A DNA stretch of 64,000 bases from NCBI GenBank assembly GCA_030407085.1, contig CM059587.1:72839001-72903000 (forward strand). Reading direction: 5' to 3'. The notes under the pieces were generated by a model. That model worked only from the letters and a program-made list of their open reading frames with translations. It had not been told where the DNA came from and made no database searches. Position 1 is the first letter of the stretch. Each line of letters opens with the position of its first letter. Of this stretch, positions 821 to 56,872 are shown one piece after another. This stretch comes from Trichopria drosophilae. Taxonomy: Eukaryota > Arthropoda > Insecta > Hymenoptera > Diapriidae. A program made the position numbers and the translations under genes.

Positions 821-3002
821 TCAGAACATCCCTGCTCCATACACGATTCCTTCATTTTCAACATAACTTGCTTCCCTTCGATTTGTTGCCCGTGCTATAA
901 TGCGTCTAGCTTTTCTGAATTTCTCCGATGACTTTTCAATTCCTCTTGCCAGTCTGCGAGAGTCACAATTTAGCGATAGCTTTACTGTTTCTCTGCCAGT
1001 AGACAGTCCCAACTTCGTAAGAATTTCAGAAACTGTCCTCGTAGTCCCAAGGTTGTACTCGCATATAGCCAAACACGTTGCAATTTTTATCCGAGAGTTA
1101 CCGACAAACACTTCTTTTGGGCACCTGCTCCAAATAATACTGTGCAAACTTTCATTTGCGTTCTGAGTCAGGCATCTTGAGCAACGCAACAACAGGGAAT
1201 CTTCAGACAATCTTTGATATAATGGTAGAATTTTGTCGAAGCACAATTGAGTGAGAGGTGTATGGATGTTTCCATTATGAGAACGTGGTTTCTTATTATT
1301 TGCCTTGTCTGCTTGGAAGAAACACCAAGAAGATGATCCTTGAGGACATAGAAAGTGTTGAGGTTTTATATCAGTAGAAACTGCGTGATAAATCGACGCC
1401 AGGATCGAATCTCTCATTGCCTATTGATCATTGTTTGTTCATTATAAATCCATTTCATTTTTGACGATTTCTGAATAATTGAGAAATTCATATTTTTACT
1501 CACATCAATATTGTTCTTATTCCTGTGAATAGCTTTCTTGTAATATTCTGTCAACTTTTGGATCGTTGATTTTTTTAGCTGTCCATATCCTCTACCACCC
1601 AGTGTCACTTTACGTGCCTTTTCCTCTGATACTATGTTGCATAGTCCAGTAAACAGTCTGACAATAGTAATAAGGAGTAAACAGTATAACATTTTGCTTG
1701 TAAGTTACTAGAAATAATCAGAAGCAATTACATAAATAATTTCACTCACCTTTTTCCTACGTGATTCACACATTCTTCTTTGGAAATTTCATGATCTGCA
1801 CCATATACATTCAGGCTAGTCAGATGGTTGAAAGTTTTACAATCTCCATCTGAGAGCATTTTAGTGTATCGAAATCCATATTCGATAGACCGCTTCCAGA
1901 GATTCTCAGCAACCGATACTTCCATTGCTCCAGCTGATCCATTATGGTTCTTGTTGCAACATTCAGCATGACCTTCAGACCAGACAGCAAATTCAGGTGA
2001 GTCTTCACCTAACTCAGCAGCGGCCATCACGCAAGTATGACAATATTTTGTCATAATATCATAATCTATAACAAATCCTGTCTCTATATCAATAACGCAT
2101 CCTACACCATGCTTCGATTTATAACCACGCGTTAGCCAAGTGCCATCGTAACTGACGCCAATGTCTACGATGTCTTGGTTTTCCCTTTTTTCATTATCTT
2201 CTGTTTGCATATCTACATTTGTTATCTCTTCGATTACACAATTATTGTCATTCACTTCATTTTCCACTACAAAATTATCGGACGAATCTTCCTTTTCTCC
2301 GTCTATTTCGAATTCGAGCTCTTCCAATGTGTGGTTTTCTGTCACATTATTCTCACTATGGACTTTCCTAGCAATTGTTCGGCATTCCTGAAGAATATTT
2401 TGAGTAACTTGGTCAATACTTGATGATAATGTATTTACATAGTTCTGAAAATTGGATTCTGATAAAGGGTGCAAATTCATAAAGGTACAAAATTGTTGGA
2501 CTCCCGAATATCCCTTTCCCATGTATAGGAAAGCTGCAGCCAAGCGCAAATTCACGTCAAAAGGAGTGTGAGACGAGTGGTTTTTAGTGACACGTTTTGA
2601 AGAATAAATTTCACATTTTTGGGCTTCAAATCCCTGCATCTCACACTCTTGACAGCGGAAAACAATTTTGTGTGCAAATCCAATACAACTGTTTTCACCT
2701 GCATCAAGCGTCATAGATATTCCATCGCAATCAACACATTTCACTCTCTTTAGAAGCTGTTTCAACTGTGAAATATCAAAAATTATATATTGAATGCCAT
2801 TCTCAACGTTCACTTCCTGGGACATTTCTTCAAATTTTGTGTCAATCCGAACACTCGTCTTTGGCAATTCGTTTATTTCATTTTCCAATTCCATTTGATT
2901 TTCATTTGAGCATAGTAAATCATTACTTTCACGTGAGACACGATTTCGCCATCGATTTTCATTCAGCTTGTTGTAATATTTTGATCTTTTACGTTTAGGC
3001 AT
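821..3002 (-). CDS. Mutator-like (Kolobok-type) transposase, three exons
   Basis: Catalyses excision and integration of the surrounding element. Exons on the minus strand: 3002-1750, 1696-1504 and 1420-821. The introns are 1749-1697 (53 bp) and 1503-1421 (83 bp), both with GTGAGT donors and AG acceptors, and frame is kept across both. The joined protein is 681 residues with no stop. The N-terminus has a basic PKRKR stretch (possible nuclear signal) and a Cys-rich zinc-binding-like part (C89, C92, C117, C120). Catalytic-core motifs follow: VSYDGTW (D286), YCHTC near 320, GHAECCN near 344 and SDGD (D385, D387). The third exon has TQNANESLH and SKCP-like SRCPKE, where the last acidic residue is expected. 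All hallmarks of the Mutator-like transposase family are present, so it could still be active. Confidence 0.85.
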
Positions 3003-3289
3003 TTTTGGTTAGTTGATCGATTTATTGAAAATGTTTTTTCTAAGATTGTGAAGATATTTGACAAAAAAAAACTAAAAAAAAAGATCAAATGCACTTACAG
3101 AGATTATTGTCGTGAAATCTCACCGATACACTGAGAAAAGTTCACTCTCAAATAAATTACGTACTGACAGAACATAGCGCAATATGCAATATGTGACAAA
3201 TGAGAATCTCATACTTGAACGGTCGATAGTTTTGCAGCATATACATATAAAATTACTTATAAATTCTTAGTACATTTTTTTTACAAAGA

Positions 3290-7041: not shown

Positions 7042-7118
7042 ATGTTTATTCGGGTTTCTGCGGTGAATACGCATTATAATAAAGCTCTTGGGAGTGTCGT
7101 TTGCCTATCGCAACTCCC
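7042..7118 (-). pseudogene. BEN-domain exon remnant
   Basis: Read on the minus strand, this gives RQTTLPRALL, a TAA, then CVFTAE, closely matching the fragment at 47530-47590 (RQTTLPRALS, stop, CVFTAEALSKCS). The pattern resembles the C-terminal part of insect BEN-domain proteins (DNA-binding or chromatin adaptors). Both copies have a stop at the same point. It abuts the poly-C minisatellite. Confidence 0.45.
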
Positions 7119-7614
7119 CCCACCCCCCCCCCCCCCCACCCCCCCCCCCCCCCACCCCCCCCCCCCCCCACCCCCCCCCCCCCCCACCCCCCCCCCCCCC
7201 CACCCCCCCCCCCCCCCACCCCCCCCCCCCCCCACCCCCCCCCCCCCCCACCCCCCCCCCCCCCCACCCCCCCCCCCCCCCACCCCCCCCCCCCCCCACC
7301 CCCCCCCCCCCCCACCCCCCCCCCCCCCCACCCCCCCCCCCCCCCACCCCCCCCCCCCCCCACCCCCCCCCCCCCCCACCCCCCCCCCCCCCCACCCCCC
7401 CCCCCCCCCACCCCCCCCCCCCCCCACCCCCCCCCCCCCCCACCCCCCCCCCCCCCCACCCCCCCCCCCCCCCACCCCCCCCCCCCCCCACCCCCCCCCC
7501 CCCCCACCCCCCCCCCCCCCCACCCCCCCCCCCCCCCACCCCCCCCCCCCCCCACCCCCCCCCCCCCCCACCCCCCCCCCCCCCCACCCCCCCCCCCCCC
7601 CACCCCCCCCCCCC
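7115..7614. repeat. C15A minisatellite (16-bp period)
   Basis: About 31 uninterrupted copies of fifteen C followed by one A over 500 bp. The complementary strand is G15T. It creates long meaningless Pro- or Gly-rich open frames in all six frames. The right end passes directly into the inverted hammerhead satellite unit. Confidence 0.95.
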
Positions 7615-8186
7615 ATAGAATTATTGTAAGCGAATATGCGTAATTATTATGGTAACGGGATGTCGTTACACAGTACGCATATCCGTAATATTCCCAAAAT
7701 ATAAAATTAATACTTTGATGCGAAAGCATCCAATAAATTTTTCGACCGCTTGAAAATATAAATTTAATATTTGAATAGTCTTGGTATATGTCGGTCACTT
7801 TACTAAACGAAATTAAGTTAAATTGATTTTAAGTGTCTACTCGGTTTTCGATGGAAAACACATTTGACATATTAAATGTAAGAAGCCGGGATTTGTGTAA
7901 TTATCGCCGACAAAATCTCTGTTTAAAACGGGCTGTATAAGTACGTATAAAATAAATATTATTCATGGATTTTGTTTCCCTCTAGCGATAATCAATTGAA
8001 CTAATGTCTATTGTAAATATTTTGCGTTTCGTCCCGAGATCTCGTGATGGACTCTTCAGTAAGGCTAACACGAGAATCTCTGCCTTAGACGCAAAAATGG
8101 TTTTGTAAATAATTTGAACTTTAAATAAAACTAAACAATGAAGGAAATGTTTAGAATTATTGTAAGAACCATACCCGTTACCATAA
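7615..8186 (-). repeat. hammerhead satellite unit, inverted copy
   Basis: Reverse complement of one 536-bp satellite unit, joined head-to-head to the forward array at about 8187 by a short spacer (AACCATACC). It carries its own hammerhead on the minus strand (8020-8096). The resulting palindrome has arms of more than 500 bp. Confidence 0.9.
8020..8096 (-). ncRNA. hammerhead ribozyme motif (inverted unit)
   Basis: Same 77-nt motif as at 8273-8349 but on the minus strand: stem III TTTTGCGT/ACGCAAAA, core CTGAAGA and GAAA, stem I TAAGGC/GCCTTA, stem II GTCC/GGAC. Confidence 0.8.
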
Positions 8187-8272
8187 TAATTACGCATATT
8201 CGCTTACAATAATTCTAAACATTTCCTTCATTGTTTAGTTTTATTTAAAGTTCAAATTATTTACAAAACCAT

Positions 8273-8349
8273 TTTTGCGTCTAAGGCAGAGATTCTCGTG
8301 TTAGCCTTACTGAAGAGTCCATCACGAGATCTCGGGACGAAACGCAAAA
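8273..8349 (+). ncRNA. hammerhead ribozyme motif, unit 1
   Basis: Predicted self-cleaving RNA with every core element. Stem III is TTTTGCGT (8273-8280) with ACGCAAAA (8342-8349), 8 bp. The cleavage nucleotide C is 8281. Stem I is TAAGGC (8282-8287) with GCCTTA (8304-8309). Core CTGAAGA is 8310-8316. Stem II is GTCC (8317-8320) with GGAC (8335-8338). Core GAA is 8339-8341, with A8342 pairing to U8280. The open helix is stem III (type III arrangement), with predicted cleavage between 8281 and 8282. Loop I (GAGATTCTCGTG) and loop II (CACGAGATCTC) are complementary to each other with one bulge, consistent with a loop-loop contact. In a tandem transcript, cleavage would release 536-nt monomers. 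Confidence 0.85.
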
Positions 8350-8808
8350 TATTTACAATAGACATTAGTTCAATAGATTATCGCTAGAGGGAAACAAAAT
8401 CCATGAATAATATTTATTTTATACGTACTTATACAGCCCGTTTTAAACAGAGATTTTGTCGGCGATAATTACACAAATCCCGGCTTCTTACATTTAATAT
8501 GTCAAATGTGTTTTCCATCGAAAACCGAGTAGACACTTAAAATCAATTTAACTTAATTTCGTTTAGTAAAGTGACCGACATATACCAAGACTATTCAAAT
8601 ATTAAATTTATATTTTCAAGCGGTCGAAAAATTTATTGGATGCTTTCGCATCAAAGTATTAATTTTATATTTTGGGAATATTACGGATATGCGTACTGTG
8701 TAACGACATCCCGTTACCATAATAATTACGCATATTCGCTTACAATAATTCTAAACATTTCCTTCATTGTTTAGTTTTATTTAAAGTTCAAATTATTTAC
8801 AAAACCAT

Positions 8809-8885
8809 TTTTGCGTCTAAGGCAGAGATTCTCGTGTTAGCCTTACTGAAGAGTCCATCACGAGATCTCGGGACGAAACGCAAAA
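8809..8885 (+). ncRNA. hammerhead ribozyme motif, unit 2
   Basis: Identical to the motif at 8273-8349, displaced by exactly 536 bp. Confidence 0.85.
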
Positions 8886-9344
8886 TATTTACAATAGACA
8901 TTAGTTCAATTGATTATCGCTAGAGGGAAACAAAATCCATGAATAATATTTATTTTATACGTACTTATACAGCCCGTTTTAAACAGAGATTTTGTCGGCG
9001 ATAATTACACAAATCCCGGCTTCTTACATTTAATATGTCAAATGTGTTTTCCATCGAAAACCGAGTAGACACTTAAAATCAATTTAACTTAATTTCGTTT
9101 AGTAAAGTGACCGACATATACCAAGACTATTCAAATATTAAATTTATATTTTCAAGCGGTCGAAAAATTTATTGGATGCTTTCGCATCAAAGTATTAATT
9201 TTATATTTTGGGAATATTACGGATATGCGTACTGTGTAACGACATCCCGTTACCATAATAATTACGCATATTCGCTTACAATAATTCTAAACATTTCCTT
9301 CATTGTTTAGTTTTATTTAAAGTTCAAATTATTTACAAAACCAT

Positions 9345-9421
9345 TTTTGCGTCTAAGGCAGAGATTCTCGTGTTAGCCTTACTGAAGAGTCCATCACGAG
9401 ATCTCGGGACGAAACGCAAAA
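9345..9421 (+). ncRNA. hammerhead ribozyme motif, unit 3
   Basis: Identical to the motif at 8273-8349, displaced by 1072 bp. Confidence 0.85.
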
Positions 9422-9880
9422 TATTTACAATAGACATTAGTTCAATTGATTATCGCTAGAGGGAAACAAAATCCATGAATAATATTTATTTTATACGTAC
9501 TTATACAGCCCGTTTTAAACAGAGATTTTGTCGGCGATAATTACACAAATCCCGGCTTCTTACATTTAATATGTCAAATGTGTTTTCCATCGAAAACCGA
9601 GTAGACACTTAAAATCAATTTAACTTAATTTCGTTTAGTAAAGTGACCGACATATACCAAGACTATTCAAATATTAAATTTATATTTTCAAGCGGTCGAA
9701 AAATTTATTGGATGCTTTCGCATCAAAGTATTAATTTTATATTTTGGGAATATTACGGATATGCGTACTGTGTAACGACATCCCGTTACCATAATAATTA
9801 CGCATATTCGCTTACAATAATTCTAAACATTTCCTTCATTGTTTAGTTTTATTTAAAGTTCAAATTATTTACAAAACCAT

Positions 9881-9957
9881 TTTTACGTCTAAGGCAGAGA
9901 TTCTCGTGTTAGCCTTACTGAAGAGTCCATCACGAGATCTCGGGACGAAACGCAAAA
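9881..9957 (+). ncRNA. hammerhead ribozyme motif, unit 4 (one stem III change)
   Basis: Same motif, but stem III reads TTTTACGT, so one G-C pair becomes A-C. The catalytic core is unchanged, so activity may be reduced rather than lost. Confidence 0.75.
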
Positions 9958-10272
9958 TATTTACAATAGACATTAGTTCAATTGATTATCGCTAGAGGGA
10001 AACAAAATCCATGAATAATATTTATTTTATACGTACTTATACAGCCCGTTTTAAACAGAGATTTTGTCGGCGATAATTACACAAATCCCGGCTTCTTACA
10101 TTTAATATGTCAAATGTGTTTTCCATCGAAAACCGAGTAGACACTTAAAATCAATTTAACTTAATTTCGTTTAGTAAAGTGACCGACATATACCAAGACT
10201 ATTCAAATATTAAATTTATATTTTCAAGCGGTCGAAAAATTTATTGGATGCTTTCGCATCAAAGTATTAACT

Positions 10273-12862
10273 AGTCTTATTACTAGTCTTAATCTATTCT
10301 ATAATTTCTCACACTCGAATATTAATTGCTAATTTAACTAATTTTAATCCTAATTATTATTATAAAGAGTGACTTCCGAATATATTTTTGATTCAAACAA
10401 ATATTTACTTATCTAAATTTTCTCCCGTGCAAAACGTCTCAAAATTAAAAAAAAGTTATACTTTTAAATTTAACTTTAACCGTTTTAAACTCCAATATGG
10501 CCGTCAAAATGGCCGTTTCCTTTTCGGAGCACGTTTCAATATGGCGGCCTCGCCGTTCACGCGGTCAGAAAATGGCCGTTGCCTTTTTTATAAGTATGTA
10601 TCAAGGACTTTAGATACATACTATTGGATAACCTTAGTTATACCATCAACAAACGCCATACTAATAATAACAATGAGCACGTCTAAATTCTAATGGTATG
10701 ACTCGAAGCTATTTAAAGTCGTTCTTCGTGCAAGACTCTTCAGGATTTCCTGGTTATTGTGACTTTACCGCATTAGTAATTACATAACATTTACGAATTA
10801 ATTCGTGTAATTCTAACGCCCTATTCCCTTGCTTTGCATCCTCAAAGTAATCGGTATTACGAAAACCAGCAAAGTCAATTCCAATGGTTGGTGAAAAAGG
10901 GGCTTGCATATTAAAATATGCATTTCGGGAAGCATCCCATTCTGGCAATTCGGCACCATTAGGTCCGGTATAACAATTACCTCTAGCCCGCGCACTTCTT
11001 CTGCGCTTCAATCCAAATAGCGCAATTAGATTAGATTGTAATGCACCAACGTTAACATAGGAATTTAACACATTACCCGGCATAGTCACTAAACGGGCAA
11101 TTAACTCTTGTCCGACCGCTGCTCTATCTACTTCAGTGAATCTAATTATGGCAGCATCTGGTTTACTTACAATTGGGCCCGTATGCATCTTAAATCTTGT
11201 TGCAAATTGTTTGCAAACGCCAGAAACTTTACGCATTAATGTTACTGACCATTGTAAACGGGTCTCCATGTCATCTTGATCAGGAAAAGCGATGTTTTGT
11301 AATGATGCAATGCCGTTAGGGCCGAGAATCTCAATAGTTGGTCTATAGCCTAACAAATTTGTATTTGGAACACCACCTTCAGGCATTAAATCTTCTGGTA
11401 ATGGAGTCCAATCTTGGGCCTGTTCTTGTGTAGCAACTAATAGTCTTTTGGTGACGAGAGGACTTACATTAACCTCATATGTGTTGTGATTTGCATTACC
11501 GCATCTACCAAAACTGCCACCAATATGTTGTACTCCATCCACTAATGCATTAGCTTGTGGTACAATGGAGGTAGGCACATTTACATAGACCTCATCGCTG
11601 TCAACTGTTGTTATTTTTGTTATTAAAGATAAATAATCGGCAATAGGCTTTGGAAAGGTAAAGTCATCATCAATCAAATGCTTGGGGGCCGTCTCCCCAG
11701 CATATCGATCTTCCCTGTTTTCCGTTATGCATATTGAAATTAAATGCGCATTTAATAATGATGTAAGCGCATGTTGGAAAGCTGCAAACGGCATCTTCTC
11801 ACGTAAATTCCCATCAATGCCTTCTAATAATAGAAAGGTACGTTCAATTAATAGTGGGTACGTGGACAGGTCAAGATTTTGACTATACGTGCGACGGAGT
11901 GGGTCAGAACTAAGTTCAAATGGACCCAACATTAACTCCGCTGATATGCCAAGTTCATCATTGGTCTTAGAATCAGCTTTTGGAGTTACTCTACCACCCC
12001 GGCCTCTAGAACGTCCGTCTCGACCGCGGAAGGCTCTCCTTCCTCTGGGTGGACCACCTCGGATTGGAGTACTATGACTTCCAAATTCAGAAATTCGCGA
12101 GCGTGGATTTGATATTGGCGATTGTAATTCAACAGGAATTCCTGGATTAACAGATCGACCTGACATAAATCGAGTTGAAGGCATCTGCCTCTGTTGTTTT
12201 CTGCTCATTATGTTGCTACTTTTATAATAATAAAGATATAAATTTTAAAAAATCTGATAATTAAATTTCAGTTTTCAGAAAATTTTGAAAAAACGGACCA
12301 ATGAAAAGTTTTGAAAAGAAAAAACGTTATTAACTATAAATAACCGGTAAACATTGAACATTATTATACACGTAAAAAACAATATCGTTAGATTACTTAT
12401 TTCAAAGATATTTATTCCATATAAAACAGGTAGTAAAATTGACTATTTCAGAAAGAAAAGTTAGAAAAGTTAAAATGAAGAAATTTGCAAATAACACCAT
12501 ATTTGTTCATATAGGCCACAACGTACAATTAATTTATTGACTATTTCGTTTTTCTTAGCTATTTCTGTTCTTCGTTATCTATTGGTAATTATTTAATAAT
12601 TATTTTTAATACAAATCTACATTTGACTCAAATTTCTTATTAGAAGAAATATTTTTATTTGTTTCAAATAAAGAAGGTAATAAAAATCACTATTTTCACA
12701 AATATTAGAAACATTCGTCAAAACATAGGTATAACTACAAGAAAGAATGTAACTTTTCTAGTATAATACATTTACTTGAATTTATTGTGAAGTTAATTAA
12801 ATGCATCAATTATTATACATATTTTTATCGACCGTTTATATTCAACTATATATATATATATA
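10273..12862. repeat. co-amplified block, copy 1
   Basis: A 2.6-kb single-copy-type segment between satellite array 1 and a broken MITE, repeated at 15956-18547 (offset 5683 bp). By eye I see only about three substitutions and one AT dinucleotide difference between the copies. It holds the 484-residue gene (10754-12208). The 480 bp downstream of the gene (10273-10753) and 650 bp upstream (12209-12862) are AT-rich. The downstream part has AATATGGCC and AAAATGGCC words. I see no second gene; a 101-codon frame at 10388-10693 lacks an ATG. Confidence 0.85.
10754..12208 (-). CDS. unrecognised 484-residue protein, capsid-like guess (copy 1)
   Basis: I do not recognise this protein with certainty. 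It is an intact single-exon frame from ATG (12206-12208) to TAA (10754-10756), preceded by an A/T-rich leader. Residues about 52-77 are Arg/Gly-rich (GRRAFRGRDGRSRGRGG), the kind of disordered basic tail that binds RNA or DNA. The remaining 400 residues look like a globular fold with mixed hydrophobic and polar stretches, including FTFPKPIADYL near 178-188 and a basic LKRRR near 400. There are no transmembrane segments, Cys clusters or transposase motifs. Size, basic tail and lack of introns would suit a capsid protein of an RNA virus captured in the genome (partiti-like or toti-like), but this is inference. It has no partner gene for replication. The second copy differs at two residues (59 and 406). 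Confidence 0.55.
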   Translation of the reverse strand: MSRKQQRQMPSTRFMSGRSVNPGIPVELQSPISNPRSRISEFGSHSTPIRGGPPRGRRAFRGRDGRSRGRGGRVTPKADSKTNDELGISAELMLGPFELSSDPLRRTYSQNLDLSTYPLLIERTFLLLEGIDGNLREKMPFAAFQHALTSLLNAHLISICITENREDRYAGETAPKHLIDDDFTFPKPIADYLSLITKITTVDSDEVYVNVPTSIVPQANALVDGVQHIGGSFGRCGNANHNTYEVNVSPLVTKRLLVATQEQAQDWTPLPEDLMPEGGVPNTNLLGYRPTIEILGPNGIASLQNIAFPDQDDMETRLQWSVTLMRKVSGVCKQFATRFKMHTGPIVSKPDAAIIRFTEVDRAAVGQELIARLVTMPGNVLNSYVNVGALQSNLIALFGLKRRRSARARGNCYTGPNGAELPEWDASRNAYFNMQAPFSPTIGIDFAGFRNTDYFEDAKQGNRALELHELIRKCYVITNAVKSQ

Positions 12863-12937
12863 CAGGGTGTACGAAAAGTCCCGGGACGGTTGAATAACTT
12901 TCGAAAGAATAAAAATTTCAAAAATCGCCGAAACACG
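12863..12937 (+). mobile_element. truncated MITE end
   Basis: The first 75 bp of the same MITE that is complete at 18548-19269, beginning CAGGGTGTACGAAAAGTC after a TA run. It is cut at AAACACG and fused to the satellite at CACGAGATCTCGGG; the join shares CACG. Confidence 0.85.
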
Positions 12938-13419
12938 AGATCTCGGGACGAAACGCAAAATATTTACAATAGACATTAGTTCAATAGATTATCGCTAGAG
13001 GGAAACAAAATCCATGAATAATATTTATTTTATACGTACTTATACAGCCCGTTTTAAACAGAGATTTTGTCGGCGATAATTACACAAATCCCGGCTTCTT
13101 ACATTTAATATGTCAAATGTGTTTTCCATCGAAAACCGAGTAGACACTTAAAATCAATTTAACTTAATTTCGTTTAGTAAAGTGACCGACATATACCAAG
13201 ACTATTCAAATATTAAATTTATATTTTCAAGCGGTCGAAAAATTTATTGGATGCTTTCGCATCAAAGTATTAATTTTATATTTTGGGAATATTACGGATA
13301 TGCGTACTGTGTAACGACATCCCGTTACCATAATAATTACGCATATTCGCTTACAATAATTCTAAACATTTCCTTCATTGTTTAGTTTTATTTAAAGTTC
13401 AAATTATTTACAAAACCAT

Positions 13420-13496
13420 TTTTGCGTCTAAGGCAGAGATTCTCGTGTTAGCCTTACTGAAGAGTCCATCACGAGATCTCGGGACGAAACGCAAAA
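13420..13496 (+). ncRNA. hammerhead ribozyme motif, array 2
   Basis: Full motif identical to 8273-8349. Confidence 0.85.
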
Positions 13497-13955
13497 TATT
13501 TACAATAGACATTAGTTCAATTGATTATCGCTAGAGGGAAACAAAATCCATGAATAATATTTATTTTATACGTACTTATACAGCCCGTTTTAAACAGAGA
13601 TTTTGTCGGCGATAATTACACAAATCCCGGCTTCTTACATTTAATATGTCAAATGTGTTTTCCATCGAAAACCGAGTAGACACTTAAAATCAATTTAACT
13701 TAATTTCGTTTAGTAAAGTGACCGACATATACCAAGACTATTCAAATATTAAATTTATATTTTCAAGCGGTCGAAAAATTTATTGGATGCTTTCGCATCA
13801 AAGTATTAATTTTATATTTTGGGAATATTACGGATATGCGTACTGTGTAACGACATCCCGTTACCATAATAATTACGCATATTCGCTTACAATAATTCTA
13901 AACATTTCCTTCATTGTTTAGTTTTATTTAAAGTTCAAATTATTTACAAAACCAT

Positions 13956-14032
13956 TTTTGCGTCTAAGGCAGAGATTCTCGTGTTAGCCTTACTGAAGAG
14001 TCCATCACGAGATCTCGGGACGAAACGCAAAA
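13956..14032 (+). ncRNA. hammerhead ribozyme motif, array 2
   Basis: Full motif identical to 8273-8349. Confidence 0.85.
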
Positions 14033-14491
14033 TATTTACAATAGACATTAGTTCAATTGATTATCGCTAGAGGGAAACAAAATCCATGAATAATATTTAT
14101 TTTATACGTACTTATACAGCCCGTTTTAAACAGAGATTTTGTCGGCGATAATTACACAAATCCCGGCTTCTTACATTTAATATGTCAAATGTGTTTTCCA
14201 TCGAAAACCGAGTAGACACTTAAAATCAATTTAACTTAATTTCGTTTAGTAAAGTGACCGACATATACCAAGACTATTCAAATATTAAATTTATATTTTC
14301 AAGCGGTCGAAAAATTTATTGGATGCTTTCGCATCAAAGTATTAATTTTATATTTTGGGAATATTACGGATATGCGTACTGTGTAACGACATCCCGTTAC
14401 CATAATAATTACGCATATTCGCTTACAATAATTCTAAACATTTCCTTCATTGTTTAGTTTTATTTAAAGTTCAAATTATTTACAAAACCAT

Positions 14492-14568
14492 TTTTGCGTC
14501 TAAGGCAGAGATTCTCGTGTTAGCCTTACTGAAGAGTCCATCACGAGATCTCGGGACGAAACGCAAAA
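14492..14568 (+). ncRNA. hammerhead ribozyme motif, array 2
   Basis: Full motif identical to 8273-8349. Confidence 0.85.
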
Positions 14569-15027
14569 TATTTACAATAGACATTAGTTCAATTGATTAT
14601 CGCTAGAGGGAAACAAAATCCATGAATAATATTTATTTTATACGTACTTATACAGCCCGTTTTAAACAGAGATTTTGTCGGCGATAATTACACAAATCCC
14701 GGCTTCTTACATTTAATATGTCAAATGTGTTTTCCATCGAAAACCGAGTAGACACTTAAAATCAATTTAACTTAATTTCGTTTAGTAAAGTGACCGACAT
14801 ATACCAAGACTATTCAAATATTAAATTTATATTTTCAAGCGGTCGAAAAATTTATTGGATGCTTTCGCATCAAAGTATTAATTTTATATTTTGGGAATAT
14901 TACGGATATGCGTACTGTGTAACGACATCCCGTTACCATAATAATTACGCATATTCGCTTACAATAATTCTAAACATTTCCTTCATTGTTTAGTTTTATT
15001 TAAAGTTCAAATTATTTACAAAACCAT

Positions 15028-15104
15028 TTTTGCGTCTAAGGCAGAGATTCTCGTGTTAGCCTTACTGAAGAGTCCATCACGAGATCTCGGGACGAAACGC
15101 AAAA
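15028..15104 (+). ncRNA. hammerhead ribozyme motif, array 2
   Basis: Full motif identical to 8273-8349. Confidence 0.85.
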
Positions 15105-15563
15105 TATTTACAATAGACATTAGTTCAATTGATTATCGCTAGAGGGAAACAAAATCCATGAATAATATTTATTTTATACGTACTTATACAGCCCGTTTTA
15201 AACAGAGATTTTGTCGGCGATAATTACACAAATCCCGGCTTCTTACATTTAATATGTCAAATGTGTTTTCCATCGAAAACCGAGTAGACACTTAAAATCA
15301 ATTTAACTTAATTTCGTTTAGTAAAGTGACCGACATATACCAAGACTATTCAAATATTAAATTTATATTTTCAAGCGGTCGAAAAATTTATTGGATGCTT
15401 TCGCATCAAAGTATTAATTTTATATTTTGGGAATATTACGGATATGCGTACTGTGTAACGACATCCCGTTACCATAATAATTACGCATATTCGCTTACAA
15501 TAATTCTAAACATTTCCTTCATTGTTTAGTTTTATTTAAAGTTCAAATTATTTACAAAACCAT

Positions 15564-15640
15564 TTTTGCGTCTAAGGCAGAGATTCTCGTGTTAGCCTTA
15601 CTGAAGAGTCCATCACGAGATCTCGGGACGAAACGCAAAA
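15564..15640 (+). ncRNA. hammerhead ribozyme motif, array 2
   Basis: Full motif identical to 8273-8349; last complete motif before the junction with block copy 2. Confidence 0.85.
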
Positions 15641-15955
15641 TATTTACAATAGACATTAGTTCAATTGATTATCGCTAGAGGGAAACAAAATCCATGAATA
15701 ATATTTATTTTATACGTACTTATACAGCCCGTTTTAAACAGAGATTTTGTCGGCGATAATTACACAAATCCCGGCTTCTTACATTTAATATGTCAAATGT
15801 GTTTTCCATCGAAAACCGAGTAGACACTTAAAATCAATTTAACTTAATTTCGTTTAGTAAAGTGACCGACATATACCAAGACTATTCAAATATTAAATTT
15901 ATATTTTCAAGCGGTCGAAAAATTTATTGGATGCTTTCGCATCAAAGTATTAACT

Positions 15956-18547
15956 AGTCTTATTACTAGTCTTAATCTATTCTATAATTTCTCACACTCG
16001 AATATTAATTGCTAATTTAACTAATTTTAATCCTAATTATTATTATAAAGAGTGACTTCCGAATATATTTTTGATTCAAACAAATATTTACTTATCTAAA
16101 TTTTCTCCCGTGCAAAACGTCTCAAAATTAAAAAAAAGTTATACTTTTAAATTTAACTTTAACCGTTTTAAACTCCAATATGGCCGTCAAAATGGCCGTT
16201 TCCTTTTCGGAGCACGTTTCAATATGGCGGCCTCGCCGTTCACGCGGTCAGAAAATGGCCGTTGCCTTTTTTATAAGTATGTATCAAGGACTTTAGATAC
16301 ATACTATTGGATAACCTTAGTTATACCATCAACAAACGCCATACTAATAATAACAATGAGCACGTCTAAATTCTAATGGTATGACTCGAAGCTATTTAAA
16401 GTCGTTCTTCGTGCAAGACTCTTCAGGATTTCCTGGTTATTGTGACTTTACCGCATTAGTAATTACATAACATTTACGAATTAATTCGTGTAATTCTAAC
16501 GCCCTATTCCCTTGCTTTGCATCCTCAAAGTAATCGGTATTACGAAAACCAGCAAAGTCAATTCCAATGGTTGGTGAAAAAGGGGCTTGCATATTAAAAT
16601 ATGCATTTCGGGAAGCATCCCATTCTGGCAATTCGGCACCATTAGGTCCGGTATAACAATTACCTCTAGCCCGCGGACTTCTTCTGCGCTTCAATCCAAA
16701 TAGCGCAATTAGATTAGATTGTAATGCACCAACGTTAACATAGGAATTTAACACATTACCCGGCATAGTCACTAAACGGGCAATTAACTCTTGTCCGACC
16801 GCTGCTCTATCTACTTCAGTGAATCTAATTATGGCAGCATCTGGTTTACTTACAATTGGGCCCGTATGCATCTTAAATCTTGTTGCAAATTGTTTGCAAA
16901 CGCCAGAAACTTTACGCATTAATGTTACTGACCATTGTAAACGGGTCTCCATGTCATCTTGATCAGGAAAAGCGATGTTTTGTAATGATGCAATGCCGTT
17001 AGGGCCGAGAATCTCAATAGTTGGTCTATAGCCTAACAAATTTGTATTTGGAACACCACCTTCAGGCATTAAATCTTCTGGTAATGGAGTCCAATCTTGG
17101 GCCTGTTCTTGTGTAGCAACTAATAGTCTTTTGGTGACGAGAGGACTTACATTAACCTCATATGTGTTGTGATTTGCATTACCGCATCTACCAAAACTGC
17201 CACCAATATGTTGTACTCCATCCACTAATGCATTAGCTTGTGGTACAATGGAGGTAGGCACATTTACATAGACCTCATCGCTGTCAACTGTTGTTATTTT
17301 TGTTATTAAAGATAAATAATCGGCAATAGGCTTTGGAAAGGTAAAGTCATCATCAATCAAATGCTTGGGGGCCGTCTCCCCAGCATATCGATCTTCCCTG
17401 TTTTCCGTTATGCATATTGAAATTAAATGCGCATTTAATAATGATGTAAGCGCATGTTGGAAAGCTGCAAACGGCATCTTCTCACGTAAATTCCCATCAA
17501 TGCCTTCTAATAATAGAAAGGTACGTTCAATTAATAGTGGGTACGTGGACAGGTCAAGATTTTGACTATACGTGCGACGGAGTGGGTCAGAACTAAGTTC
17601 AAATGGACCCAACATTAACTCCGCTGATATGCCAAGTTCATCATTGGTCTTAGAATCAGCTTTTGGAGTTACTCTACCACCCCGGCCTCTAGAACGTCCG
17701 TCTCGACCGCGGAAGCCTCTCCTTCCTCTGGGTGGACCACCTCGGATTGGAGTACTATGACTTCCAAATTCAGAAATTCGCGAGCGTGGATTTGATATTG
17801 GCGATTGTAATTCAACAGGAATTCCTGGATTAACAGATCGACCTGACATAAATCGAGTTGAAGGCATCTGCCTCTGTTGTTTTCTGCTCATTATGTTGCT
17901 ACTTTTATAATAATAAAGATATAAATTTTAAAAAATCTGATAATTAAATTTCAGTTTTCAGAAAATTTTGAAAAAACGGACCAATGAAAAGTTTTGAAAA
18001 GAAAAAACGTTATTAACTATAAATAACCGGTAAACATTGAACATTATTATACACGTAAAAAACAATATCGTTAGATTACTTATTTCAAAGATATTTATTC
18101 CATATAAAACAGGTAGTAAAATTGACTATTTCAGAAAGAAAAGTTAGAAAAGTTAAAATGAAGAAATTTGCAAATAACACCATATTTGTTCATATAGGCC
18201 ACAACGTACAATTAATTTATTGACTATTTCGTTTTTCTTAGCTATTTCTGTTCTTCGTTATCTATTGGTAATTATTTAATAATTATTTTTAATACAAATC
18301 TACATTTGACTCAAATTTCTTATTAGAAGAAATGTTTTTATTTGTTTCAAATAAAGAAGGTAATAAAAATCACTATTTTCACAAATATTAGAAACATTCG
18401 TCAAAACATAGGTATAACTACAAGAAAGAATGTAACTTTTCTAGTATAATACATTTACTTGAATTTATTGTGAAGTTAATTAAATGCATCAATTATTATA
18501 CATATTTTTATCGACCGTTTATATTCAACTATATATATATATATATA
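15956..18547. repeat. co-amplified block, copy 2
   Basis: Second copy of 10273-12862 with the same flanking satellite junction on its left. On its right the MITE is complete rather than broken, so this copy keeps the ancestral right edge. Confidence 0.85.
16437..17891 (-). CDS. unrecognised 484-residue protein, capsid-like guess (copy 2)
   Basis: Second intact copy of the gene at 10754-12208: 484 codons, same start and stop. The protein differs only at residue 59 (Gly instead of Ala, in the Arg/Gly-rich tail) and residue 406 (Pro instead of Ala, beside the RRR stretch). Both copies being free of stops and frameshifts in a region full of decayed genes suggests a recent duplication, recent acquisition, or selection. 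Function unknown; the capsid idea rests on size and basic tail only. Confidence 0.55.
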   Translation of the reverse strand: MSRKQQRQMPSTRFMSGRSVNPGIPVELQSPISNPRSRISEFGSHSTPIRGGPPRGRRGFRGRDGRSRGRGGRVTPKADSKTNDELGISAELMLGPFELSSDPLRRTYSQNLDLSTYPLLIERTFLLLEGIDGNLREKMPFAAFQHALTSLLNAHLISICITENREDRYAGETAPKHLIDDDFTFPKPIADYLSLITKITTVDSDEVYVNVPTSIVPQANALVDGVQHIGGSFGRCGNANHNTYEVNVSPLVTKRLLVATQEQAQDWTPLPEDLMPEGGVPNTNLLGYRPTIEILGPNGIASLQNIAFPDQDDMETRLQWSVTLMRKVSGVCKQFATRFKMHTGPIVSKPDAAIIRFTEVDRAAVGQELIARLVTMPGNVLNSYVNVGALQSNLIALFGLKRRRSPRARGNCYTGPNGAELPEWDASRNAYFNMQAPFSPTIGIDFAGFRNTDYFEDAKQGNRALELHELIRKCYVITNAVKSQ

Positions 18548-19269
18548 CAGGGTGTACGAAAAGTCCCGGGACGGTTGAATAACTTTCGAAAGAATAAAAA
18601 TTTCAAAAATCGCCGAAACACGTGATTCGATTTTTCAAACAAGCTATCTTTTGAGGGGGGGTTTCGGCCCCCCAACCTCAAGGGGGGCGGGGGGCACGAG
18701 GGGGGCCAAAAATCTTAAATGGCAACATGGTTTGAGTGGGGGCTCATTTGAAAGGTATTTTCGAGATGAATTCAGATCACTGGTCATAGAGGGCGCTGCG
18801 ATCATTTTTCGCAGAGATTTTTGACTTTTTCAGATCTTAGACGTACTAACGTTTGAAAAAATGAAAATTTCGAAGTCGCCGAATCGTGTAATTCAATATT
18901 CTTAAAAAACTTAAAAAACTTAAAATCGTGTAAAACAATATTCTTAAACGGGTGTCAACCCGTTTCTGAACGTTATATTGAAAACCTCTTTTACTTGTAT
19001 CTCTCCGAAAAATGATCGCAGCGCCCTCTATGACCAGTGATCTGAATTCGTCTCGAAAATACCTTTCAAATGAGCCCCCACTCAAACCATGTTGCCATTT
19101 AAGATTTTTGGCCCCCCTCGTGCCCCCCGCCCCCCTTGAGGTTGGGGGGCCGAGACCCCCCCTCAAAAGATAGCTTGTTTGAAAAATCGAATCACGTGTT
19201 TCGGCGATTTTTGAAATTTTTATTCTTTCGAAAGTTATTCAACCGTCCCGGGACTTTTCGTACACCCTG
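18548..19269. mobile_element. fold-back MITE, mariner-type ends, TA target
   Basis: 722 bp flanked by TA. The ends CAGGGTGTACGAAAAGTCCC and its inverted copy continue as inverted arms of over 300 bp. The arms include G-rich runs (GAGGGGGGG, GGGGGGCGGGGGGC) and a CATGGTTTGAGTGGG word. It is noncoding; the 106-codon minus frame at 18846-19166 is a by-product of the palindrome. The ends resemble those of the mariner at 28025-31618 (CAGGGTGTCCGAAAAG). Confidence 0.85.
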
Positions 19270-19583
19270 TATAACAGTATTGATGTTTATCGGTCTAATA
19301 TAACAAAAATAAAAAATTATATTAAATATATTTTTTTTAACAAAATTTAAAAAACAGGGGTAATGGTAGGAAGAAAGCGTTAAAATACAAATAATTATGT
19401 AAGGGATATAATATAATTTTTTATTTTTTCAATTTTAGCCCGATAAACATCAATACTGTTATATATATAGTTAAACGCATCAATTCTGATTAAACTTGAA
19501 AGATTAATTGAAAGTAAACAGAGACAGAGACTTTATTGAAATAGTGCAAAATATTAAAATATCAAGATGTATTTCAAATGTAC
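19270..19583. other. AT-rich spacer, no gene
   Basis: AT-rich sequence with a short inverted word around GATGTTTATCG / CGATAAACATC (19282-19292 and 19442-19453). Nothing else recognised. Confidence 0.4.
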
Positions 19584-24754: not shown

Positions 24755-27055
24755 ATGATGATGAGGAAGAGTCTATACCACTTACCATACACTTTATCAG
24801 AAGATGATTCGACAAGCAACTTCGATTACGAGGAACATGAGTCTTTTCCCTGCGAAGATTCGGAAGAAACTGAAGAAATCGGAAACGCGGGATTCCTACA
24901 AAAATTGCACGATGGTGCAAATTTGTCTACAGGAGAATGCGTGTACGAAATTTTAAAATTTTACACCAAGCATAATTTGACGAAGAAAGCTCTTTATGAG
25001 CTTTTAACGCTTATAAACAAGTTTTTACCGCAACCCAATCATTTGCCGAAATCAAAACATTTTTTATATAAATTTATCGATGCAAATTTACCGTATTCAC
25101 AGAATATAATTAGAAAGCATCGTTTATGTGAAAATTGTAGTGAATATTTGGGACAATGGGATGCAGAATCGTTGATATCTGCTTGTACTAATTGCCAGAA
25201 TGTAAATATAAATGCCTCATTCATTGAATACGATTTGGAAGCTGCGATAAAACATGCCTTTGAATTTAGAAATTTGAAAGGATTAATAGATGCTTTTCGT
25301 AATAATATCGAACATGATCAAAATTTCATAACCGATATAACTACAGGTCTTAAATATAAAAAGTTAAAAACTGAAATTCTTCGTCAAGATTACGACGTAT
25401 GCTTACTATGGAATACTGATGGTCTTCCTTCTTCCAATAGCTCAAATGGACAAATATGGCTTGTTCAAGCTCCAATTATAAATATACCCCCGCAGAATCG
25501 CAGAAATTACCAATTTGTTTGTGGCATTTATAGCAGTAATGTAAAAAAACCTAATATGACTTCTTTTTTATGGCCGTTTGTAAAAAAGATGCAGAATTTA
25601 CGTGACCAAGGTATCGAGTGGTATGATGAGGTGCAAAAACGTACAATTCATGTTATTGCAATTGCGCCAGTTGCAACCTTAGATGCACCTGCAAGAGCTG
25701 CAGCCCAAAATATAATGCAATATAATGGTCAATTTGGTTGCACTTTTTGCGAGCACCCAGGTCAAACCAGCCAAACTGGCGACGGATTCAATAGAGTATA
25801 CCCTACGCTTAATGAGAACGGTGAAGCTCTTTGAACTAAAGAGCGTATGTATTTACAAGCAAGAGAAGTCTTTTTAAACAAAGAATTGATACACGTGAAT
25901 GGTGTGAAAGGTCCTTCAGTAACATCACAAATCCCATTTTTTGATATTGCAGAGTCATTCGTCCCAGATTATATGCATTCATTATTACTAGGTGTAAATC
26001 GAATGCTCTTCGATCTCTGGTTTAATTCAAAAAATAAAGGTAGTCCCTTTTATATAAAAAAATCAGTGCGGGATGAAATCGATAAAGATTTACAAGATAT
26101 TTATCCCCCAGACTTCGTAACTCGTACACCAAGGATTTTAAAGTATATAAAGTATTGGAAAGCTTCCGAAATTAGGGAATGTCTGTTAAACTATTTCCCT
26201 ATTTTATTAAGTGGAAAACTACATAAAAAATATTACGACCATTTTTTACTATTAGTTTACGCAACGAGGTTATTGATGACAACCAAAATCCACTTGCAAG
26301 AAATAGAACTAGCCGAGTGTTTATTTTTTATGTTTAATGTGCAAATAATGTCATTATATGGTCTTGAGAAATGTTCCTTCAATGCGCATCAATTACTTCA
26401 TATACCACGAAACGCCCTCTTGTGGGGACCATTACAATCATGGTCAGCGTTTTCTTTCGAAGATGTTAATGGGTATGTGAAAAGAATTGTCCATGGTAGT
26501 AATAAATTAGATATTGAAATTGCAAACACTCTGAAAATTTTGAATATCCTTCAAATTTTTAAACACATGCTAGATATCTCGAAAAATAAGGAATATTATG
26601 GTAATGAAGTACTTGGAAAATGCCTTAAAAGCAGTTGTTATGAGGACGATTTGTACGAAATAATACAATTTTGTGAACTAAACGGTATCGAACCGGATAT
26701 CTTAAAAGCATATTCTAGAGTAAAATTGGGCCGTTCAATAATTACATCAAAAATGTATACAAAGCAAAAAAAGCGAAATAACTTTTATGTTTTATTAAAT
26801 GATTCATCTTTGGCTACTGTACTATACTTCTTAAAATTTAATAATATGATCGTCGCTGTAACACGAAAACTTGTTTATGACAATGAAACCATCCCTATCT
26901 CAATTAAGAGTTTAAACATATCTTTTTCGACATTTATTGTTCCCTTTCGTGAAACCTACTGTATACAAATTGTTCCCGTTAATGAAATTAAGAATCAGGT
27001 GATACGTGTGAAGAATTACTTATGTTTACCGATTAATTTGAATGAAAAAAAATAA
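24755..27055 (+). pseudogene. TNP2/CACTA-like transposase with one in-frame TGA
   Basis: A transposase of the plant-TNP2-like type found in animal CACTA-related (CMC) elements. One frame of about 766 codons is interrupted only by TGA at 25832-25834. The acidic N-terminus is followed by a CxxC pair (LCENC, 40 residues before ACTNC). The core has WNTDGLPSSNS (D222), IPPQNRRNYQFVCGIY, KPNMTSFLWPFV, LDAPARAA (D310), GCTFCEHPG, then after the stop VPDYMHSLLLGVNRML (D405), LKYIKYWKASEIRECLLNY, NAHQLLHIPR and GPLQSWSAFSFEDVNGYVKR, the DUF4218-type C-terminal pattern. Order, spacing and length fit the family. The lone stop may be a recent mutation or a sequence error. No terminal repeats were identified. 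Confidence 0.8.
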
Positions 27056-28570: not shown

Positions 28571-28844
28571 CTGCAATCAGCGAACCACGTACCTGGAATA
28601 GCGGACCACGTTTCCAAAATTTTAAATGACGTCTTTTGCCTTTAAATATTTCAAAGTTCACCGATTCTTACCGCGAGGAGGTAGACGATTTTGAGAATCT
28701 TTTTTTTTTATTTTTGTATATTTTTTTTTTGTTTTTACCTTTTATTTGTTTTTTTTTTATTTTTTTAATTTTTTTTCTATTTTAAAGTTTAAATTTTCCT
28801 TCGCTTCTATTTTCTTTACTGGATTTTTAACATGTCTATGCCCA

Positions 28845-29918: not shown

Positions 29919-30782
29919 AGTATGCCAAATTACAACAGGAGGCAGAATACAGAATGTATCGAAATGGAAGAAATATGAAGCAAAGAATGAAGAAATAAAA
30001 GAAATATAAAAAATTAGAAGAAATTCAAATGTTAGAGAAACATTACATTAAGTATCAAATAGCGAGAACGAAGAGAATTGCGATTTTTTGCGGTACGAAT
30101 TTGACCAAGTTTTCGACAAGAGTGACGCTCGCATGTGTAATTTTCACAAAGCTGAAAAATAACCGAGACCTTGACTCATTCAAACAATAGAGCTTAACTA
30201 ATACTAAGACGTGCTGTTTTGATTTGGACGCTGACGATGTTCGATTATTGACTACTTTCTCTGTAACACTGGCAGTTGAAAAAATCGACCGAGTGTATGC
30301 AATGGGTTTCCGCAAGCGATACCTACAGTACTTTCACACAAGTATACAAAATCACAGTCATGCAAGAAAGCCATAACACCATATGCGGATTTGGTCACCA
30401 TTTACGCTATTCGGATACACGACATTCACTTCCTCGTAGAATAAGGATGTCGATTCTTCATTTTTCTGTCAAAAACTTTGTATGCACAATTACAAGGGGG
30501 GAGCGAATAAAGAATTTTAATATCTGGAAGAAAAGGTAAGCAAATACATTAAAAAAAAACATAAAAAAATTTAATAGTGAAGAATAAAAAAAAGGTAAAA
30601 AACAGAAATCAAATAAAAAAAAAAGTAAAACAGAAGATTCTCAAAATCGTCTACCTCCTCGCGGTGAGAATCGGTAAACTAGAAATATTTAAAGGCAAAA
30701 GACGTTATTTAAAATTCTGAAAACGTGGTATGCTATTCCATGTACGTCAAGTTAAATATTTTTTAGTAATTTTTTAATTTCG

Positions 30783-56284: not shown

Positions 56285-56419
56285 TACTTACAGGGAAGGG
56301 GGTTGTCGCGCGGTTATAGGGGTCGAATATATATTTCGATAAACGATACCGTATTTTCCTACTACGTCATGCTAGGTCACATACAAATATTAGAAAAAAA
56401 TAAATAAAAAAGTTGGCTG
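56285..56419. other. no gene seen
   Basis: Short unique sequence between the satellite and the second hammerhead. Confidence 0.4.
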
Positions 56420-56486
56420 ATGTTTCGTCCCGGGTCCGCTTACGGACTCTTCAGTGGGGCTTATGAGCGGACCCTGCCCCAGACAT
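56420..56486 (-). ncRNA. second hammerhead ribozyme motif
   Basis: Complete motif on the minus strand. Stem III is ATGT (56486-56483) with ACAT (56423-56420). Cleavage C is 56482. Stem I is TGGGGC with GCCCCA (6 bp); core CTGAAGA is 56454-56448. Stem II is GTCC with GGAC; core GAA is 56426-56424. Loop I holds GGGTCCGC and loop II holds GCGGACCC, perfectly complementary over 8 nt. It has the same architecture as the 536-bp satellite motif but different stem I and loop sequences. It is single copy here, and the host element is not identified. Confidence 0.8.
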
Positions 56487-56564
56487 ATCTCGCCAATAAA
56501 TGTCACTTCTATATAATATATAAATAAATAATATGATATACAATATAACAGATATATTGAATCA

Positions 56565-56872
56565 TTACTCACCCACCGATGAGACCGCGAAGCGACCCGG
56601 GAAGTCACCACCAACGCACCTCAAGGTTCTGTCTCTATGATATACCCGAACTATAATGATAAAACTGGTCCGAACGTCTCGGAACCCCACGATCAAGTAA
56701 CTGATGGTGCCCTCCGCAAGCCTGTTTATTCGGGTTCGGATAATTTGTTTACTAGAGGCAGGACTTCGGAAAACAACAACCACGCCGCAAAACAAACTAA
56801 TTGCAAAGAAGTTAATTCATATTTTCAGCATCAGCCAGAGGACGATAAATTTAAATTGAAACGAAAAAGAGA
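56565..56872 (+). CDS. possible exon of unknown gene
   Basis: An open frame through EVTTNAPQGSVSMIYPNYND, SGSDNLFTRGRTSENNNHAA and PEDDKFKLKRKRE ends at a strong GTAAGT donor (56873). The composition looks coding (Asn/Lys/Ser-rich, basic end). The phase does not match the next gene's first exon at 57560, so I cannot join them. No family recognised. Confidence 0.3.

Follow-up and report, generated by a model that had tools for sequence, protein, structure and literature searches.

As far as the available parts of the cited papers go, the closest described systems are the metazoan non-LTR retrozymes, which are short low-GC tandem hammerhead repeats, dispersed and with target duplications of more than 4 bp where these are present (PMC7229834). 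They are 150 to 450 bp long and carry type I hammerheads; the Penelope hammerhead is of minimal type I, and Penelope-like elements were proposed, on indirect grounds, as strong candidate mobilisers of these retrozymes (PMC7229834). We analyzed a 536-bp repeat found in 64,000 nucleotides of Trichopria drosophilae DNA (the window). The 536-bp family shares with the metazoan retrozymes the short tandem repeat of low GC content (0.31-0.32 across the array), the dispersal and the target duplications longer than 4 bp. It differs in length and in its hammerhead, which is predicted to be of type III with stem III open, and it adds a predicted Watson-Crick pairing between loops 1 and 2 and a Penelope-like insertion signature.

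The pDo500 repeat of Dolichopoda cave crickets is likewise an insect repeat of about 500 bp with a hammerhead. It cleaves in vitro, and single (49 nt) and double folds were suggested (PMC2837043). It was described as a satellite making up ~5% of a genome, whereas the 536-bp family is a dispersed element. HDV-like agents and termite and fly genomic hammerheads resemble the present unit in being insect type III hammerheads with Watson-Crick pairing between loop 1 and loop 2, which is predicted for the unit (PMC7936874). In the HDV-like agents the hammerhead helices are longer and the contact is a 4-nt GCCR/YGGC one; in the termite genome the motif occurs in isolated copies, unlike the 536-bp arrays. 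In the available text of the same paper, earlier searches found no such type III hammerheads in hymenopterans, hemipterans and a cockroach. An insect host had been proposed in an earlier reading made from the letters of the window (the sequence-only reading), and 129 odorant-receptor matches in the genome agree with it.

Predicted hammerhead and array structure

The features of the window are listed below.

7616..8166, minus strand: unit in inverted orientation, forming the left arm of the head-to-head array and carrying the inverted core
8026-8090, minus strand: inverted core
8167..8202: inversion centre between the inverted arms 7616-8166 and 8203-8753 (inverted-pair comparison)
8187..10270, plus strand: forward units, 3.9 copies of 536 bp; the right end is unit position 476, outer-end site 1
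8272..8350, plus strand: predicted type III hammerhead of the first forward unit; cleavage is predicted to follow C8281, and loop 1 is complementary to loop 2
8279, 8815, 9351, 9887, 13426, 13962, 14498, 15034 and 15570, plus strand: forward cores
8606..8673, plus strand (unit positions 420-487): outer-end sites at unit positions 420-433 and 476-487; the hairpin GGATGCTTTCGCATC separates the two
9885, plus strand: G to A substitution at position 91 of the unit starting at 9795, which breaks one pair of stem III
10271..12933: non-repeat stretch, with a copy at 15954-18618 (99.8%)
12934..15953, plus strand: second array half, 5.6 units
56330..56826, minus strand: second hammerhead repeat (B family, LTR type), the LTR of L048 as assigned by eye; hammerhead at 56417-56489

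The ten 65-nt cores (nine on the plus strand and one on the minus strand) are identical and all hammerhead parts are present, as the sequence-only reading had described for nine forward units and one inverted unit. In the first forward unit, stem III has 8 bp (TTTTGCGT/ACGCAAAA), stem I 6 bp (TAAGGC/GCCTTA) and stem II 4 bp (GTCC/GGAC). CTGAAGA and GAAA are present and the GTC cleavage triplet is found at 8279-8281. With a CUGANGA...GAAA core, a UH cleavage site, three helices and an open stem III, the unit hammerhead is a predicted ribozyme of type III. Type III hammerheads are thought to be rare in animals. The same reading had noted one unit with a stem change, which is the G to A substitution at 9885. 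It had also proposed a search with the Rfam type III model. Hammerhead_3 matched all ten cores, nine with 37.2 bits (E 2.1e-4) and one with 31.5 bits (E 0.0086) over 64 kb, but all scores were under the cut-off of 48.5 bits and no match in the window reached the gathering score.

The forward units show a 536-bp spacing in both array halves. The span 8187..15955 had been taken as one array; forward units do occupy 8187-10270 and 12934-15953, but the 2,663-bp stretch at 10271-12933 is non-repeat DNA that interrupts the array and holds a 496-aa ORF. This interruption was missed in the sequence-only reading, as were the predicted loop-loop pairing and the presence of another hammerhead family at 56.4 kb. 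The segment 8170-12945 is present again at 13854-18629 with 99.8% identity, and the second array half is the product of this 5.7-kb tandem duplication. The left end of the array abuts a 499-bp poly-C tract. No ORF of at least 150 aa, the lower limit of the ORF listing, is found inside the 536-bp units. The array was missed by Tandem Repeats Finder because the longest period of that program is 500.

The ORF next to the array has two relatives, located on contigs of 1.5-1.7 kb, and could be viewed as capsid-like. The array would then stem from an insect RNA virus whose viroid-like satellite RNA was endogenised and became fixed in DNA form beside the gene of the helper; type III hammerheads do occur in HDV-like agents of termite and toad (PMC7936874, available text). 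We consider such an origin very improbable. The contact between array and ORF is a single junction copied by the local duplication, the cores are spread over the genome, and the opposite strand of the 536-bp unit gave no hammerhead match, unlike viroid and HDV-like RNAs with ribozymes on both strands. A 300-residue piece of the ORF found no relative in viral contigs and matched no solved structure; the 34-nt core pattern was absent from viral contigs.

The units in the window differ by at most one base from the commonest unit, so the array itself carries no information on selection; it is the diverged relatives in other parts of the genome that provide evidence beyond chance for the hammerhead. 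In an alignment of ten hammerheads (nine distinct), both partners have changed in 7 of 19 pairs, and none of 500 shuffles reached this number or the covariation score. The measure of further pair types was reached by 116/500 shuffles of the same alignment, and stem II shows no variation. Complementarity of at least 9 nt between loops 1 and 2 was found in 7 of 14 subfamilies compared to 0 of 182 cross pairs; in four of the 14 the match is only 3-5 nt. The family in the window has a 7-nt loop match (4+7 with a bulge), and 1,080 of 200,000 loop shuffles did at least as well. The complementarity covaries, and a loop 1-loop 2 contact is predicted. Of the 53 distinct hammerhead contexts, eight have no good stem I or no good UH site.

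In the minimum-energy fold of a single copy without pseudoknots the hammerhead is not formed, because loops 1 and 2 pair with each other as nested hairpins (-25.3 kcal/mol vs -15.4 kcal/mol for the hammerhead without kissing pairs). The linear unit folds better than 100/100 dinucleotide shuffles. The circular unit has a paired fraction of 0.53 vs 0.57 in mononucleotide shuffles, and 3/60 shuffles fold as well.

Dispersed copies and insertion borders

A genome-wide search with the type III core pattern gave 1,462 matches (0 with the reversed-pattern control), and the 536-bp family has 219 cores (control 0). The first 100 places listed for this family fall into 36 loci, 23 of them with a single core. 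The 536-bp family is a dispersed element, and the term satellite used in the sequence-only reading is not supported; classical satellites form long local arrays and not single insertions. All 11 mixed-orientation arrays among these 36 loci run from minus to plus with one switch, the largest, at 94.47 Mb of C1, with 31 minus and two plus cores. Inverted arms that face outward, with border repeats, would also be expected of a fold-back or inverted-repeat DNA transposon carrying hammerheads in its terminal repeats. This is disfavoured and hardly credible here, since the arms hold unequal numbers of units (31 vs 2), their ends lie at different sites and there are also same-strand insertions.

Target duplications of 13-15 bp enclose 7 of 11 insertions examined (null, 1/110), including four arrays of 5 to 33 cores. 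The border matches at L058 (9 nt) and L025 (8 nt) are inside the null. No target duplication was found at L059 or L022, nor by eye at the array in the window. The outer ends are located at two fixed sites about 50 nt apart in the unit in 19 of 22 cases; the other three are at unit positions 31, 355 and 404. Of the ten palindromic insertions examined, among them that of the window, seven have one site at each end. The two sites, at unit positions 420-433 and 476-487, are the putative start sites of reverse transcription. Departures from the clean pattern are seen at L025 (end 355), L022 (end 404, in a relative with 70-74% identity) and L059 (no duplication). L049 has an end at site 2 and lacks an inverted arm. 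This plain insertion begins within about one base of the predicted cleavage site, and micro-homology with the target blurs its border.

Near-identical units in the window, an exact 536-bp spacing over 31 cores and the 5.7-kb tandem duplication, which is a local event at the DNA level, would suit ordinary satellite DNA with a chance hammerhead, spread by unequal crossing-over or DNA circles with no role of RNA. Yet the 36 loci are dispersed, whole arrays are enclosed by 13-15-bp duplications and their outer ends are fixed, and we judge this explanation decidedly unlikely. Target duplications around arrays together with fixed outer ends indicate that the 536-bp arrays most likely arise by retrotransposition. 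The amplification through RNA that the sequence-only reading had suggested gains support. The long arrays could also reflect later growth after insertion.

LTR-borne hammerheads in the same genome

The second repeat in the window contains a diverged type III hammerhead (56417-56489, minus strand, 31.1 bits). Families B, C and D of the genome have type III hammerheads inside LTRs and are in this respect like the plant LTR retrozymes, which are mostly type III (PMC4918200, available text). The paired hammerheads of families B and C are 5-7 kb apart, in contrast to ~0.7 kb in the plant elements. Family D (L052) is compact, with a PBS, a PPT and a 4-bp duplication (by eye). In six 9.9-kb stretches around family C copies no second full LTR was found; a 121-bp fragment is present in L011 only. 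Ten pieces of internal ORFs of the LTR elements L047 (the only ORF of at least 120 aa), L048 (6 of 24 ORFs of at least 60 aa) and L052 (3 of 7 ORFs of at least 50 aa) had no Pfam match. The 536-bp family, inspected by eye, is not a plant-type LTR retrozyme with LTR, PBS and PPT, since its ends are two internal sites.

Penelope-like signature and proposed mechanism

According to the available text of PMC11167929, a Penelope enzyme cuts and extends both target strands and initiates at two internal sites that lie side by side within a stem-loop, which gives rise to the "tail" of genomic copies; hammerhead mutants left insertion unaffected in the assay. In rotifers, most Penelope copies lie head-to-head; their duplications measure 8-10 bp, and a tail of 31 bp may be present (PMC3846280, available text). 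Like these elements, the 536-bp family has arms in head-to-head orientation, two putative internal start sites beside a hairpin, an optional tail, copies in tandem and short target duplications; its duplications (13-15 bp) are longer than those of the rotifer. Penelope-like elements are present in the genome, with 142 GIY-YIG matches above the cut-off; two sets sit in ~3.1-kb tandems, and RVT_1 plus GIY-YIG was found in three of five ORFs tested. Unlike these elements, the unit has no ORF for reverse transcriptase plus GIY-YIG, and it has no significant similarity to the eight GIY-YIG loci compared (38.3 bits, reached by 1/60 shuffles). Its weak match to L067 was rejected as kinship, being inside the shuffle range.

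Target duplications of 13-15 bp are typical of LINEs. Twin priming by a LINE-type enzyme yields minus-then-plus inversions as well, and the same element might have been copied in that way. Under twin priming a single fixed 3' end is expected, together with an inner priming point that varies, but both outer ends are at the two fixed sites in 7/10 palindromic insertions, and no poly(A) tail was seen by eye at the insertion ends inspected in the 536-bp family. We find the LINE route unlikely.

It is probable, in our view, that the 536-bp unit represents a type III retrozyme, non-coding and not autonomous, and that a Penelope-like enzyme copies it in trans, with RNA circles as the probable template. 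This proposal builds on the hammerhead sequence and its covariation, the dispersal, the array architecture, the target duplications, the fixed ends and the presence of Penelope-like elements, all of which were observed; from them we infer cleavage, RNA circles and use of the Penelope enzyme in trans. The array would be transcribed, and each hammerhead, whose loops 1 and 2 would be joined by a Watson-Crick kissing helix, would cut the RNA into 536-nt units. A host ligase may circularise some units, by analogy with known retrozymes. The reverse transcriptase, a Penelope-like enzyme provided in trans, would cut both strands of an AT-rich target and start copying from both target ends, at unit positions 420-433 or 476-487, which flank the small hairpin. 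It would lap the template several times, and the two cDNA arms would then join into a head-to-head array, minus units first and plus units after them, within a 13-15-bp target duplication. More tentatively, with the chances slightly below even, rolling-circle reverse transcription of the ribozyme-made 536-nt circle from both ends of one cut may have produced head-to-head arrays of up to 33 units (~17.5 kb) in one insertion.

In the literature listings and passages that we examined, with most subscription papers and bioRxiv outside them, we saw insects credited neither with arrays of type III hammerheads nor with hammerheads inside LTRs. The present families would extend plant-type retrozymes (type III, partly LTR-borne) to an insect, in large numbers. 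The idea that a Penelope-like enzyme moves animal retrozymes can now be tested with one RNA and one protein, because the insertions show two start sites and head-to-head arms as in Penelope elements. If the rolling-circle proposal is true, there would be a direct RNA-circle route to "instant satellites", and satellite-like tandem arrays could originate from RNA in one step.

The hammerhead array and its neighbours

The 536-bp repeat family is arranged in the window as follows.

7616–8166, minus strand: inverted unit (inverted-repeat comparison)
8187–10270 and 12934–15953, plus strand: forward units (unit comparison)

All ten 65-nt hammerhead cores in the window (nine on the plus strand, one on the minus strand) are identical, in agreement with the sequence-only reading, which saw complete hammerheads in nine forward units and one inverted unit. 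Two substitutions distinguish units from the commonest one: one at position 189, shared by the first unit and its copy at 12934, and one at position 91 of the unit at 9795. The latter breaks one stem III pair and is the single stem change that had been noticed. The two forward halves are a single array doubled by a 5.7-kb local duplication (8170–12945 = 13854–18629). The array runs minus then plus, as in mixed loci elsewhere. An exact 16-base C-rich repeat (7116–7614, 499 bases, 31 copies at 100%) abuts the left end of the inverted unit and may be real sequence or an assembly artefact.

Rfam at the gathering level gave no match in the whole window. In a relaxed scan every core matched Hammerhead_3, nine at 37.2 bits and the altered one at 31.5 (E = 9.4e-6 with 2.8 kb searched, 2.1e-4 with 64 kb). 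The expected likeness to the Rfam type III model thus holds for all ten cores, but all score below the cut-off of 48.5. The same relaxed 64-kb scan found a diverged second hammerhead at 56417–56489 (minus strand, 31.1 bits). The topology is type III, since loops cap stems I and II while stem III lies open; the open stem III had been read from the sequence. In an alignment of ten hammerheads (nine distinct; two from the window, eight from elsewhere) 97.6% of cells pair, and 7 of 19 pairs have changes on both sides. These changes lie in stem III, stem I and the loop-loop helix; stem II is invariant. None of 500 shuffles matched the number of both-side changes or the covariation score and 116 of 500 matched the number of further pair types, counts which are not probabilities since the sequences are related.

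Other features of the window are listed below.

1749–3008, minus strand: Mutator-like transposase match, 154.8 bits
10754–12244 and 16437–17927, minus strand: 496-aa open frame, two copies beside the array
24755–25831, plus strand: tnp2-like match, 25.9 bits, just under the cut-off of 28.6
28625–28699, minus strand: HDV-like ribozyme candidate, RF02682, 31.1 bits (cut-off 44)
28848–30047: DDE_3-like ORF of a transposon, 27.6 bits (cut-off 28.6)
30636–30709, plus strand: HDV-like ribozyme candidate, RF02682, 32.4 bits (cut-off 44)

A 300-residue piece of the 496-aa frame matches proteins of 490 aa (46% identity) and 484 aa (38% identity), found on contigs of 1,533 and 1,737 nt; the frame may be an endogenised fragment of a segmented RNA virus. 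Both RF02682 candidates lie just within the long inverted repeats of the DDE_3-like transposon and face outward. If real, they would be self-cleaving ribozymes within a DNA transposon.

Hammerhead relatives across the genome

We searched the host assembly (936 Mb, 509 contigs). It contains 129 matches to PF02949, which we take to be the insect-specific odorant receptors, and 0 of 14 control genomes were positive; the host is an insect, as claimed. RF00008 has at least 8 matches (68 of 124,751 candidates scored). The pattern CTGANGAGTCC-N4..24-GGACGAAAC occurs 730 + 732 times and its backwards version 0 + 0 times; being restricted to a single stem II sequence, the count is a minimum for this hammerhead kind, while some counted cores are decayed. 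The first 100 places listed were taken and the sequence of 30 of these was examined. For the window's family, the core was counted at 219 places (92 + 127; control 0).

The same kind of hammerhead is located within TG...CA long terminal repeats in families B, C and D. In family C the repeat is 713 bp long, and loci L006 and L047 show 5-bp duplications. Family B (L048) has 636-bp repeats with 98.7% identity, a PBS, a PPT and a 5-bp duplication, and in family D (L052) three 510-bp repeats recur at intervals of about 1,450 bp, with a PBS, a PPT and a 4-bp duplication. The PBS and PPT, and the duplications at L047, L048 and L052, come from visual inspection of the sequence ends. The repeat of the 56.4-kb hammerhead groups with locus L008 (94% over 499 bp), whose repeat has a common start with that of L048 (by eye). 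A 146-bp tandem repeat (52362–56281, about 27 copies) ends beside this B-family repeat. An inverted-repeat element starting CAGGGTGTACGAAAAGTCCCGGGACGG is found at 12859–12933, 18544–18818 and 18999–19273, and this start also borders the hammerhead repeat of L008.

Sampled loci gave 53 distinct contexts, 45 with at least 5/6 stem I pairs and a UH site and 8 without. By loop 2 the 45 form 14 subfamilies, the largest being B and C combined. The longest exact loop 1-loop 2 complements in the 14 are 3, 4, 5, 5, 6, 6, 7, 9, 9, 10, 11, 11, 11 and 12 nt, compared with 8 nt or less in 182 cross-subfamily pairs. The window's family has a 7-nt complement (4 + 7 with a bulge). Its predicted pairing leans mainly on the cross-subfamily pattern, because 1,080 of 200,000 loop shuffles reach 7. 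Such pseudoknots are predicted for about 40% of hammerheads (PMC3088659); the complement length here is unusual against the published descriptions consulted.

Insertion pattern and proposed copying enzyme

The first 100 listed places of the window's family group into 36 loci, of which 23 hold one core each, 2 are same-strand tandems and 11 are mixed. Among these places, all 11 mixed loci run minus then plus with one switch each; the largest comprises 31 minus cores followed by 2 plus cores. Border words were compared at eleven loci, including L022, a relative at 70–74% identity. Seven match at 13, 13, 14, 14, 14, 15 and 15 nt, one at 9, and three at 8, 7 and 5; the seven include the 33-core array and an 11-core array. 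Among 110 mismatched border pairs, 1 has a match of at least 13 nt and 17 have one of at least 9 nt. Outer ends cluster at unit positions 420–433 or 476–487, about 50 nt apart (19 of 22, counting the window's two); of the remaining three, one is at 31 (the window's left end, beside the poly-C tract), one at 355 (L025) and one at 404 (L022). Seven of ten palindromic insertions have one end at each site. In seven inspected loci from other subfamilies, outward pairs are present at five (L053–L057), and the border repeats measure 13 (L057), 12 (L054), 12 (L009), 10 (L051), 8, 7 and 6 nt; of 72 mismatched pairs, 1 has at least 12 nt and 4 have at least 10 nt.

Amplification through RNA circles had been suggested for this family. 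The exact spacing of the 31-unit arm would be explained most simply by running round a circle; arrays may also have been lengthened by expansion after insertion. Circles have been reported for type I retrozymes (PMC7229834). Of two plain insertions, one, the same-strand dimer L049, starts within about one base of the predicted cleavage site, which fits a ribozyme-made 5' end; its adjoining 13-nt target duplication shares micro-homology with the unit at the start. The other, L059, starts at 259.

The purified anole Penelope enzyme favours AT-rich sites and both cleaves and extends the two target strands. It initiates at two neighbouring internal positions within a stem-loop, and this accounts for the optional 'tail' seen on genomic copies (PMC11167929). 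In rotifers, Penelope copies lie most often in head-to-head orientation, have target duplications of 8–10 bp in the quoted cases and carry an optional 31-bp tail (PMC3846280). Insertions of the 536-bp family look similar; their tail measures about 50 nt, and their target duplications are longer than those of the rotifer elements. In the host, at least 142 GIY-YIG matches pass the cut-off (150 of 1,521 candidates scored), including two sets of three in tandem (spacing about 3.1 kb). Of five ORFs checked, three combine RVT_1 with GIY-YIG, a fourth carries RVT_1 without GIY-YIG, and the fifth is a bacterial-type UvrC, so the matches are not all Penelope elements. The UvrC ORF (L062, G000:C1:1048612-1048839) lies inside an insect chromosome contig and is either a bacterial insertion or contamination. 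At L067, a tandem Penelope locus, the stretch separating two ORFs holds CTGACGAGGACC...GGTCGAAACGTC (reverse strand, near 2240), perhaps a candidate minimal type I hammerhead of the kind known in Penelope elements. The unit showed no significant kinship to the sampled GIY-YIG loci, and we therefore infer the use of a Penelope enzyme from the insertion pattern: a Penelope-like enzyme would copy the 536-bp unit in trans.
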